43,024 nt of DNA. Origin: Treponemataceae bacterium (GTDB lineage Bacteria; Spirochaetota; Spirochaetia; Treponematales; Treponemataceae). The position numbers and the translations under genes were made by a program. Below are positions 3,277-42,502 of the stretch, in pieces; the first letter of the stretch is position 1, and each line of letters opens with the position of its first letter. The DNA is taken from NCBI GenBank assembly GCA_024680915.1, contig JAILBN010000087.1, positions 1 to 43,024 on the forward strand, in the 5' to 3' direction. The notes beneath the pieces were generated by a model. The model saw nothing but the letters and a program-made list of their open reading frames with translations, did not search any database and was not told the DNA's origin.

Positions 3277-3425
3277 GTGAGCGAGTTTGCGAAGCAAACT
3301 CGGTAAGCACGCTTGCGTGCGACTAATATCACTCGCTTATTAAATAAGTGCGAGTTTGCGGAGCAAACTCGGTGAGCACGCTTGCGTGCGACTAATATCA
3401 TTCGTTGATTAAATAGGCGCGAGTT
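3256..3425 (+). repeat. Palindromic repeat with tandem copies of the carB 3' end
   Basis: Three units begin at 3256 (inside carB), 3327 and 3396. Each begins with codons reading YHS(M/L)IK-stop. The first two continue into a palindrome GCGAGTTTGCG..GCAAACTCG and a second hairpin CACGCTTGCGTG; the third runs into GCGAGTTTTGG only. The two downstream copies read YHSLIK-stop with synonymous changes (cat/cac, tca/tcg, aag/aaa, and tag/taa at the stop). This is an element of about 70 bp that contains the gene end, not only an intergenic palindrome. Confidence 0.85.
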
Positions 3426-3460
3426 TTGGCTTAGGCGAAAGCCCGGGCTTTGATCTAAAA

Positions 3461-24056: not shown

Positions 24057-24209
24057 GAACTGACGCGGCTCCAGAACTGATGTAGCCCCAGAACTGACGT
24101 GAGCCTGGAACTGATGTAGCCCCGGAACTGATGTAGCCCCGGAACTGACGCGGCCCAGGAACTGACGCGGCTCCAGAACTGATGTAGCCCCGGAACTGAT
24201 ACGCCTCAG
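24057..24209 (-). repeat. 17-bp tandem repeat, nine copies, between purF and purA
   Basis: Units GAACTGAYGYRGCYCCR begin at 24057, 24074, 24091, 24108, 24125, 24142, 24159, 24176 and 24193, exactly 17 bp apart. Seventeen is not a multiple of three, so a coding role is unlikely. The array begins just after the purF stop in the transcribed direction. Confidence 0.9.
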
Positions 24210-37474: not shown

Positions 37475-37520
37475 GCTTCAGCCCGCTTCAGAGCAGAAAG
37501 AGTATGAGCAGGCGGAGGCA

Positions 37521-38040
37521 AGGTCAGGGGCAGCCTCAAAACTGCCGCACCGGCACGGTCAGGGGCAACCTCAAAACTGCCGCCACCGGCAAGGACAGAG
37601 GCAGCCTCAAAAACTGCCGCTACCGGCAAGGTCAGGGGCAGCCTCAAAACTGCCGCTACCGGCAAGGTCAGGGGCAGCCTCAAAAACTGCCGCACCGGCA
37701 AGGGCAGTGGCAACCGCAAAACTGCCGCCACCGGCAAGGTCAGGGGCCGCCTCAAAAACTGCCACCACCGGCAAGGACAGGGGCAGCCTCAAAAACTGCC
37801 GCTACCGGCACGGTCAGGGGCAGCCTCAAAACTGCCGCACCGGCACGGTCAGGGGCAGCCTCAAAAACTGCCGCACCGGCACGGGCAGGGGCAGCCTCAA
37901 AACTGCCGCCACCGGCACGGACAGGGGCAGCCTCAAAAACTGCCGCCACCGGCAAGGACAAAGGCAGCTTCAAAAACTGCCGCACCGGCAAGGGCAAAGG
38001 CAGCCTCAAAAACTGCCGCTACCGGCACGGTCAGGGGCCT
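37521..38040 (+). repeat. Tandem array of 35-37 bp units in the dapF leader
   Basis: Fourteen full units and a partial fifteenth lie between the attenuator and the dapF ribosome site. Each contains GGCAG, CCTCAAAA(A) and CTGCC, a small hairpin, followed by a GC(Y)ACCGGC segment. Units vary by A4/A5 and by GCACC or GCYACC, so reading frames are not preserved. There are no unique spacers, so it is not a CRISPR array. It would be transcribed as a leader RNA of about 600 bases. Confidence 0.92.
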
Positions 38041-39045: not shown

Positions 39046-40338
39046 ATGACTATTAACAAGAACTTTTTGGATTTGGAAGCGAGCTATCTTTTTTCCACAG
39101 TGAATAAGAAAACCCGTGAGTTTATGGCTTCTCATCCTGATGTGGATGTGATAAAGCTTTCCATAGGGGATGTGACCCGACCTCTTTGCCCTGCGGTTAT
39201 TGAGGCAATGCACAGGGCTGTGGACGAGATGGCTGACGAAAAGACCTTCCGGGGCTATCCGCCGGAACAGGGCTACGATTTTATTCTTGATGCTATCCTC
39301 CAGTACGACTACCTTAAGCGGGGCATCAGCCTGAAAAAAGATGAGATTTTCCTTTCGGATGGCGCCAAAAGCGATTGCGGAAATATCGGGGACATTTTCG
39401 CCGTGGACAACACTGTGGCAATATGTGATCCCGTTTATCCTGTTTATATAGACACAAACATCATGAACGGACGGGGCAAGAAAATCATCCTGATGCCCTG
39501 TTCGGAGGAGAAGGGTTTTTTGCCTGATTTGCCGGAGCTTCCCACGGAGGATGTCTCGTCTTGTTCATGTGGCGCGGAGAAGCTTACCTGCGCAGAAGGT
39601 GCCACAAAGGGAAGAGCTCCTAATTCTGCATCAGATACCGCTCCCGTCCCGGATATCATCTACCTCTGCTTTCCCAATAACCCCACCGGAGCTGTCGCCT
39701 CAAAGGCCTACCTGAAAAAATGGGTGGATTATGCCAACGCCCACCACAGCTTGATTCTTTTCGATTCCGCCTACGAGGCCTTCATCACCCAGCCGGATAT
39801 CCCCCGCTCAATTTATGAGATTGAGGGTGCCAAAAGCTGTGCCATAGAACTGAGGTCCTTCTCAAAAACAGCCGGCTTCACAGGCCTGCGCTGCGGATAT
39901 ACTGTGGTGCCCCATGAGCTTGTCTTTGAGGGGGTGGAGCTTAACTCCCTCTGGTTGCGGCGACAGTCCACAAAGTTCAATGGCGTTTCCTACATAACCC
40001 AGCGTGCGGCCGAAGCTGTATATTCAGAAGAGGGACAAAAGCAGATTCAGGAAAATCTTTCCTATTACCGCGAGAATGCCCGGCTCATATACGAAGGCGT
40101 GAGGGAAGCCGGCTTCAAGGCCTTCGGCGGTAAAAACTCTCCTTATGTGTGGATGAAAATTCCTGCCGGCTTTACAAGCTGGAGCTTCTTCGACCAGCTT
40201 TTAGAGAAATGCCAGGTTGTGGGAACCCCAGGCAGCGGATTCGGCAAGATGGGGGAGGGCTACCTCAGGCTCACAGGCTTCGGCAGCCGGGAAAGGACTT
40301 TGGAGGCCATAGAAAGAATAAAGAAGTACTTCGGTTAG
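39046..40338 (+). CDS. dapL: LL-diaminopimelate aminotransferase
   Basis: This PLP enzyme makes LL-diaminopimelate from tetrahydrodipicolinate using glutamate as amino donor, bypassing DapD/C/E. The 430 residues are close to the family (about 410). Marks present are the N-terminal [49 protein letters not shown], and PLP Lys274 in [16 protein letters not shown] Cys/Ala/Ser-rich insert of about 20 residues (about 168-195, [20 protein letters not shown]) lies before [19 protein letters not shown] precedes ATG. It is probably co-transcribed with dapF. The downstream region shows no terminator before the hairpin array. Confidence 0.96.
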
Positions 40339-40428: not shown

Positions 40429-41078
40429 TTTCCCGACTAAACTTGAGTTTTGTGACTTCTAGTCGGGAAAATTTCCGCCTCCTTCTGAAGCTTTCCCGAC
40501 TGAACGCTTGTTATCCTGCATTTAGTCGGGAATTTCTACCTTACTTCTGTGAATTTCATCTCTCCTTTTTTGATGTTTCCCGACTGAGTGAGAGTTTTTC
40601 GGCTTTCAGTCGGGAAATTTTCCGCCTCCTTCTGAAGCTTTCCCGACTGAACGCTTGTTATCCTGCATTTAGTCGGGAAACCCTGCTTTGGTACCAGAAC
40701 TTTCCCGACTAAACGCGAGTTTTGTGACTTCTAGTCGGGAAATTTTCCGCCTCCTTCTGAAGCTTTCCCGACTAAACGCGAGTTTTTTGACTTCTAGTCG
40801 GGAAATTTTCCGCCTCCTTCTGAAGCTTTCCCGACTGAATTTGGGTTTTGTGATTTTTAGTCGGGAATTCCTAGCTTGCTTCTGGGAATTTCATCTGTCC
40901 CTTTTTGATGTTTCCCGACTGAAAGCACTATTATTTTCAATTAGTCGGGAAAACTTGCTTTAATACCATGACTTTTCCCGACTAAACGCGAGTTTTTTGA
41001 CTTCTAGTCGGGAATTCCTACTTCTAAAAAGAGCTATTTCCCGACTGAACGCTTGTTATCCTGCATTTAGTCGGGAAT
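40429..41078 (+). repeat. Hairpin array A: ten 42-bp palindromic units
   Basis: Each unit is TTTCCCGACT, about 22 loop bases, then AGTCGGGAA(A). Starts: 40429, 40492, 40576, 40639, 40701, 40764, 40827, 40911, 40974, 41037. Intervals are 63, 84, 63, 62, 63, 63, 84, 63 and 63. Loops fall into a few types, including GAACGCTTGTTATCC and AAACGCGAGTTTTTTGAC. The spacers between units also recur, for example CCGCCTCCTTCTGAAGC. The array lies downstream (3') of the nuclease-like gene, which is on the minus strand. Confidence 0.95.
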
Positions 41079-42024: not shown

Positions 42025-42275
42025 TTTCCCGACTAAACTTGGGTTTTGTGATTTTTAGTCGGGAATTTCTACCTTACTTCTGTGAATTTCATCTCTCCTT
42101 TTTTGATGTTTCCCGACTGAGTGAGAGTTTTTCGGCTTTCAGTCGGGAAAACTTCCGCCTCCTTCTGAAGCTTTCCCGACTGAACGCTTGTTATCCTGCA
42201 TTTAGTCGGGAAACCCTGCTTTAATACCATGACTTTTCCCGACTAAACGCGAGTTTTTTGACTTCTAGTCGGGAA
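42025..42275 (+). repeat. Hairpin array B: four 42-bp palindromic units
   Basis: The same units as array A start at 42025, 42109, 42172 and 42235 (intervals 84, 63, 63). They lie upstream of the nuclease-like gene start. Loop and spacer types match those of array A, in the order seen there. Confidence 0.95.
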
Positions 42276-42419
42276 GTGACTCCTTTATCCTAGCACCCCA
42301 CTACAGACGCAATACGCTAACCAAAAAAATCTTGTTCGATTTATTGTTCATATCTATTGTTGACAATGAATTGATTTTTTTGACGCTTTTCACAGGAAAA
42401 TTCTTTTTCTGAAAAATAG

Positions 42420-42448
42420 TTGACATATTTTTTCAGAAATTGTATAAA
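42420..42448 (+). promoter_or_regulatory. glnN promoter
   Basis: TTGACA (42420-42425), 17-bp spacer, TATAAA (42443-42448). RNA start near 42455, about six bases before the hairpin stem. Confidence 0.8.
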
Positions 42449-42460
42449 CGAATTATCAAA

Positions 42461-42502
42461 CGACAATGAGGTCGCGGAAATGATGTTTCTGCGACCTTTT
42501 TT
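42461..42502 (+). promoter_or_regulatory. First ANTAR-type attenuator of glnN
   Basis: CGAC-[AATGAG]-GTCG (42461-42474), loop A1 and G4. GGTCGCGGAAA (42470-42480) alternatively pairs with TTTCTGCGACC (42486-42496), followed by a T run to 42502. Confidence 0.82.

Follow-up and report, generated by a model that had tools for sequence, protein, structure and literature searches.

The gene lying between two arrays of short palindromes in a Treponemataceae contig is the key to what those arrays are. We consider it likely that the arrays are multi-site platforms recognised by the product of this gene, gene and array making up one element that combines a putative nuclease with helically phased cognate half-sites. 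On the best reading, this is probably a selfish, REPIN/RAYT-like element whose nuclease binds half-sites aligned on one face of the DNA. More tentatively, it may represent a new class of selfish bacterial element, in which a family of PD-(D/E)XK/EDxHD nucleases with no relation to RAYTs would spread its own arrays of helically phased binding sites and keep them homogeneous. Protein and site specificity would shift in step, quickly enough for close species to carry different versions at one locus. No published description of such an element of gut spirochaetes, gene plus phased array, was found in open-access papers.

The palindromic units and the gene between them

The window, that is, the whole 43,024-bp stretch that was analysed, is contig C106 of a draft assembly (3.15 Mb, 134 contigs). 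Array 1 (40429-41078, no strand) consists of ten 42-bp palindromic units on the 3' side of the gene P0001, with unit starts at 40429, 40492, 40576, 40639, 40701, 40764, 40827, 40911, 40974, and 41037. Array 2 (42025-42276, no strand) has four units, starting at 42025, 42109, 42172, and 42235, and lies on the 5' side of P0001, upstream of the gene and 25 bp from its ATG. Array 1, P0001, and array 2 form a single block. Both arrays have the unit consensus TTTCCCGACT-N22-AGTCGGGAAA; in an example unit the half-site TTTCCCGACT (40429-40438, plus strand) is paired with its inverted partner AGTCGGGAAA (40461-40470), and the half-site centres are 32 bp apart, about three helical turns. Exact matches to the pattern numbered 14 in the window vs 0 in 100 dinucleotide shuffles. 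The intervals between unit starts are 63, 84, 63, 62, 63, 63, 84, 63, and 63 bp in array 1 and 84, 63, and 63 bp in array 2, with spacers of 20-21 or 42 bp, and the order of units and spacers in array 2 resembles that of units 2-5 of array 1 by inspection. The unit length and interval count given by the first-pass annotation were reproduced, with 14 palindromic 42-bp units and 12 within-array intervals, of which eleven are 63 or 84 bp and one is 62 bp. The coordinates that it gave, 40429-41078, take in array 1 but leave array 2 outside, across the gene.

P0001 (41118-41999, minus strand, 293 aa) is a member of the array-associated protein family and has no credible match in Pfam or NCBIfam. 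Its AlphaFold2 model (pLDDT 93) shows a long helix, a beta-hairpin, and a second long helix, followed by a nuclease-type alpha/beta domain, and this C-terminal part (about residues 168-293) is predicted to be PD-(D/E)XK/EDxHD-like. The top VIA-align match was the catalytic domain of I-Bth0305I (3r3p; 88 residues, 2.5 A), with a Z of 8.3 that sits at the noise border of the tool. Further matches included Bax1, a VRR_NUC domain, and Holliday-junction resolvases, all of them members of the wider restriction-nuclease fold. Foldseek found nothing significant for the model, with no match below E 0.09. E237 is shared by all 58 family members, and at least 90% of them keep E181, D222, E233, and H238; these five are candidate active-site residues. 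The PDC-S68 candidate defence helicases end in the same nuclease domain (E 3e-24 for P0001, with 58 of 58 members matching); the P0001 match spans only residues 168-292 and reaches the end of the profile. When folded alone, the N-terminal part gave only generic coiled-coil matches, none above Z 6.6, and weak VIA-align matches to TasH and IS621 (Z 5.6-5.7) fall over the coiled coil. The protein is under purifying selection, with dN/dS of 0.09-0.14 in most pairs and 0.37-0.40 in two.

Other features were seen elsewhere in the window. A 36-bp tandem repeat of about 14 copies (GGCAAGGTCAGGGGCAGCCTCAAAAACTGCCGC) at 37517-38038 is unrelated in sequence to the arrays, and short tandem repeats with 17-bp and 69-bp units occur at 24057-24199 and 3281-3426, respectively; the genome seems repeat-rich. 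The predicted aminotransferase at 39046-40338 carries an insertion of about 30 residues (about 164-196) that is unaligned in 87-94% identical relatives of two congeners. The leader upstream of a glutamine-synthetase-like gene (42420-42500) has a GGTCGC..GCGACC hairpin and a T-run, and a similar leader occurs in another genome (G005, locus L068).

Family distribution and the coupling of protein and site

P0001 belongs to an unnamed, multicopy spirochaete protein family with a patchy distribution. Relatives were found in 37 of the 195 genomes of the taxonomic family, often several per genome. Within the genus there are four copies in this genome, 11 in G002 (the highest), five in another, and none in four congeners. 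The genomes searched were mostly draft assemblies, and the arrays often lay at contig ends. About 75 loci were fetched with their flanks, and array association was scored on the first 61. An array of at least three units was found beside the gene at 44 of these 61 loci (41 upstream and 4 downstream, the window having both) and in none of the shuffles, and a shorter seed added two loci (46/61). The same detector found arrays in 0 of 199 control windows, drawn from other loci and from more distant flanking sequence of the family loci (upstream side, Fisher p 6e-33). No array was detected at the other 15 loci, which is weak evidence of absence because an array with fewer than three similar units escapes the detector. 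The usual position of the array was 60-500 bp ahead of the start codon. Most array families have units of about 38-44 bp, and the inner spacer is nearly constant in length (near 22 bp) across loci with diverse arm words, including TTCCCATA, TACCTACA, TACGGATA, GGCTTATA, TACGGACG, GACTACGG, TTACCACT, and TTTACATA. No conserved partner gene was found across the loci, only generic ABC and XRE clusters, and the arrays showed neither a target-site duplication nor a consensus end.

Relatives on viral contigs match the C-terminal nuclease domain only. Beyond Spirochaetota, a limited search gave one homolog over most of the length (MT839528, L252:3033-3830), with no array detected near it, and no more relatives of this human-gut homolog were confirmed in the viral collection. 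The MT839528 record is labelled as a phage from human faeces, and the stand-alone homolog lies in an apparent bacterial chromosome fragment.

The four gene copies in this genome adjoin four arm families (TTTCCCGACT, TACGGGTC, TACGGACG, and TACGGCTA), and further arrays of each family, with no gene nearby, are dispersed in intergenic DNA. For the arm family of the window, the whole genome holds 40 exact TTTCCCGACT-type units on eight contigs, and a reversed control pattern gave none; with mismatches allowed, arrays were found on contigs C4, C16, C25 (two), C27, C34, C41, C121, and C106. The TTTCCCGACT-type units are absent from six genomes of the same genus, matches to the arms in other GTDB species (15) compare with about 11 estimated by chance, and viral contigs had two isolated single units and no arrays. 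One of the 15 matches lies in a Treponema MAG from yak omasum (JAGCDP010000022.1, L072:6590-6900), which has about four TTTCCCGACT-type units, a degenerate array by inspection, adjoining a type III restriction Res-like gene.

The main rival explanation is autoregulation, in which the arrays would be operators through which the protein represses its own promoter, and the dispersed arrays would be decoys or a small regulon. The array directly 5' of the gene at 41 of 61 loci and the promoter-like sequence between array and start codon at several of them agree with this, but three loci have an array only 3' of the gene, the window and some loci of the distant spirochaete G413 have arrays on both sides, and gene-less arrays occur between convergent genes and inside a pst operon. 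A repressor would also need no nuclease domain with invariant or near-invariant key residues. We regard autoregulation as unlikely, and it is compatible with the selfish-element reading.

The similarity of arm consensuses correlated with protein identity across 44 loci (Mantel r 0.54, 0 of 5000 permutations). Between orthologous arrays of related species, the inner segments diverged by 31%, the spacers by 27%, the flanks by 31%, the genes by 15%, and the arms by 4.6%, the last figure leaning slightly low because arm positions were set from the consensus within one locus; there were no indels in 347 bp of inner segments. Turnover at a single site was seen between rpsO and pnp, a gene pair that stands side by side in most of 30 related genomes. 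An array and a gene lie between the two in five species, and related genomes with adjacent rpsO and pnp have neither at that site. In these five species the N-terminal part of Pnp matches the query at 99-100% identity, yet identity among the array-associated proteins is often no more than about 60%, and three kinds of arm occur, namely TTTCCCAT (G122 and G161), TCCGACTT (G117), and ACCTACAA (G121 and G154, the latter on a short contig with rpsO unseen). The pattern may reflect either a single old insertion that has since diversified or repeated replacement.

This combination of near-identical neighbours, diverged proteins, and different arms is also what an anti-phage or competition nuclease could produce, one that cuts invading DNA with similar sites, the array storing, titrating, or licensing and the fast turnover of specificity reflecting conflict. 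The nuclease domain is indeed common to the PDC-S68 candidate defence helicases (58/58 members), but the loci share no partner gene, a linked methylase was unseen among the neighbours, and intact target sites are dispersed in the host genome. A defence role thus defined appears improbable to us.

Helical phasing of the units

Unit spacings, 228 in all, were compiled from the arrays beside family genes and from those arrays of this genome that lack a gene. Of these, 218 were within 53-107 bp and ten were longer, and 34 of the 55 possible lengths in that range never occur. Within this range the values were 53 (one), 62-65, 73-76, 83-86, 94-97, and 104-107 bp, with none between; the other TTTCCCGACT-family arrays in this genome have spacings of 62, 63, 73, 74, 75, 76, and 106 bp. 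Using array-distinct spacings (n=98), the best period was 10.55 bp (R 0.864, phase -0.01 bp), and the period obtained from the spacing classes was 10.5 (bootstrap range 10.45-11.15). Because arrays grow by duplication, the phasing was retested with one modal spacing per protein cluster (60% identity, n=30), which gave R 0.89 (p 4e-11). In G413, which belongs to another family of the same class, six gene copies were examined, and four of them are flanked, on one side or on both, by small arrays of palindromes spaced 41-43 bp, near four turns. All six gene copies of G413 (L202-L207) have a common leader, CTCAGCGA.., near the gene start, possibly an element end or a promoter.

The first-pass annotation had proposed, from the window, that the units face one side of the DNA in steps of 21 bp. 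The helical phasing is real and far stronger than a single locus could show, and the arrays of relatives, in which irregular spacing had been named as a counter-indication, use whole-turn quanta, odd as well as even. The two-turn quantum is local to the window locus; elsewhere the step is one turn, about 10.55 bp, and the array-distinct spacings gave R 0.08 at 21 bp. The whole-turn spacing suggests a protein coating one face of its own DNA array.

Tandem palindromes adjoining a nuclease-like gene could alternatively act at the RNA level, as transcribed hairpins or guides for the protein in the manner of TIGR-Tas or CRISPR; Tas proteins occur with stem-loop arrays (PMC12045711), and the weak coiled-coil alignments to TasH and IS621 point the same way. 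We consider this very unlikely, as the spacing tracks the B-DNA pitch with zero phase, arm changes showed no G-U preference (48 wobble-keeping vs 42 other transitions), no Rfam match was obtained, the Nop family is absent among the Pfam matches listed, and constant arms with free inner sequence are the reverse of guide arrays.

A last candidate was coding, the multiples of three in unit length being those of a repetitive protein. Eleven of the 12 window intervals are divisible by three, and two chance open frames on the plus strand run over array 1, one of 89 aa (40443-40712, not counted as a gene) and one of 91 aa (40688-40963). The annotation had taken the reading frame to be kept along the array; the LSRLN..FSRE peptides do appear on translation of the first frame, but at the 62-bp interval they pass into a different one, which is why the two open frames are out of register. 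The spacings show neither a 3-bp nor a 21-bp period, so coding does not explain the phasing, and the multiples of three in the window are incidental, most other spacings not being multiples of three. We dismiss the coding reading, as the arrays taken together lack a 3-bp period (R 0.07), conserved arms enclose unconstrained inner sequence, and relatives with spacings of 73, 74, 85, 95, and 106 bp refute it. Nor is the conservation a protein-level pattern, the possibility that the annotation had set against its own proposal; outside the conserved arms, the unit diverges as fast as its flanks.

Proposed mechanism and comparison with known systems

For the reading of gene and cognate array as one element, we propose that a protein dimer would bind each palindrome, contacting two half-sites that share one face of the helix and are separated by about three turns. 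With adjacent units held at whole turns, several P0001-type dimers could assemble cooperatively on one face. DNA cleavage or nicking in or near the arrays, together with recombination between arrays, would then spread and homogenise array and gene. We infer that a selfish role via cleavage or nicking and recombination is the most likely one; the explanation is weakest where it passes from binding to spread, and we put that step forward as somewhat doubtful. The family would offer a natural series of about 30 diverged protein-DNA specificity pairs with a built-in helical-phase ruler, from which one could learn how a compact nuclease recognises DNA and shifts its specificity. With no Pfam, NCBIfam, or Rfam match, the proteins and arrays are likely to go unannotated.

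Among known systems, CRISPR-Cas was rejected, as the repeats here are inverted half-sites, the spacer lengths vary by whole turns, and the spacers recur; no Cas family was found for P0001 in Pfam or NCBIfam. TIGR-Tas loci are similar in having a compact gene next to a locus-specific array with palindromic features, but in TIGR arrays repeats of 8-12 nt alternate with 9-nt spacers, and these arrays are processed to 36-nt RNAs and go with Nop-domain proteins (PMC12045711). That format differs from units of about 38-44 bp spaced 62-107 bp, and no Nop domain was found for P0001 in Pfam or among the matches listed for its family, the structural match to TasH being weak (Z 5.7). PDC-S68 (PADLOC) has a C-terminal nuclease domain homologous to that of P0001, but its members are helicase proteins of about 1,200 aa, and P0001 has 293 aa and no helicase. 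In H-NS-type assemblies the spatial arrangement of sites directs cooperative DNA assembly (PMC5418058), and site arrangement may be a similar guide here; H-NS, however, is an abundant nucleoid protein, and the present arrays are specific palindromes with a dedicated nuclease-like gene.

By analogy, the best guide to the probable chemistry of P0001 is I-Bth0305I, the top structural match to its C-terminal domain (Z 8.3, borderline), which is reported to dimerise on a target of nearly 60 bp, a long DNA site with multiple contacts (PMC3943268). The P0001 gene differs in being free-standing and flanked by many intact candidate sites instead of interrupting a single one, with no intron or intein seen and no family match at the sequence level.

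REPIN/RAYT systems are the closest in arrangement. Extragenic palindrome families come one per associated gene, clustered beside that gene as well as dispersed, and diverge with the protein (PMC3116915), and the same holds here for cognate palindromes beside the gene and across the genome. The enzyme, in contrast, is not a Y1/HUH transposase, and the arrays are long and spaced by whole turns. PF01797 (Y1_Tnp) had no match in P0001, among the Pfam matches listed for the family, or in the genomes G000, G122, G117, G208, and G413, and inspection of consensus units and array flanks revealed no common GTAG/CGTC tag. As the defining Y1 transposase is absent, the element is not a member of REPIN/RAYT. 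It would instead be a second solution to the RAYT/REPIN arrangement, reached with an unrelated enzyme, and as such would make the persistence of dispersed bacterial palindromes testable.
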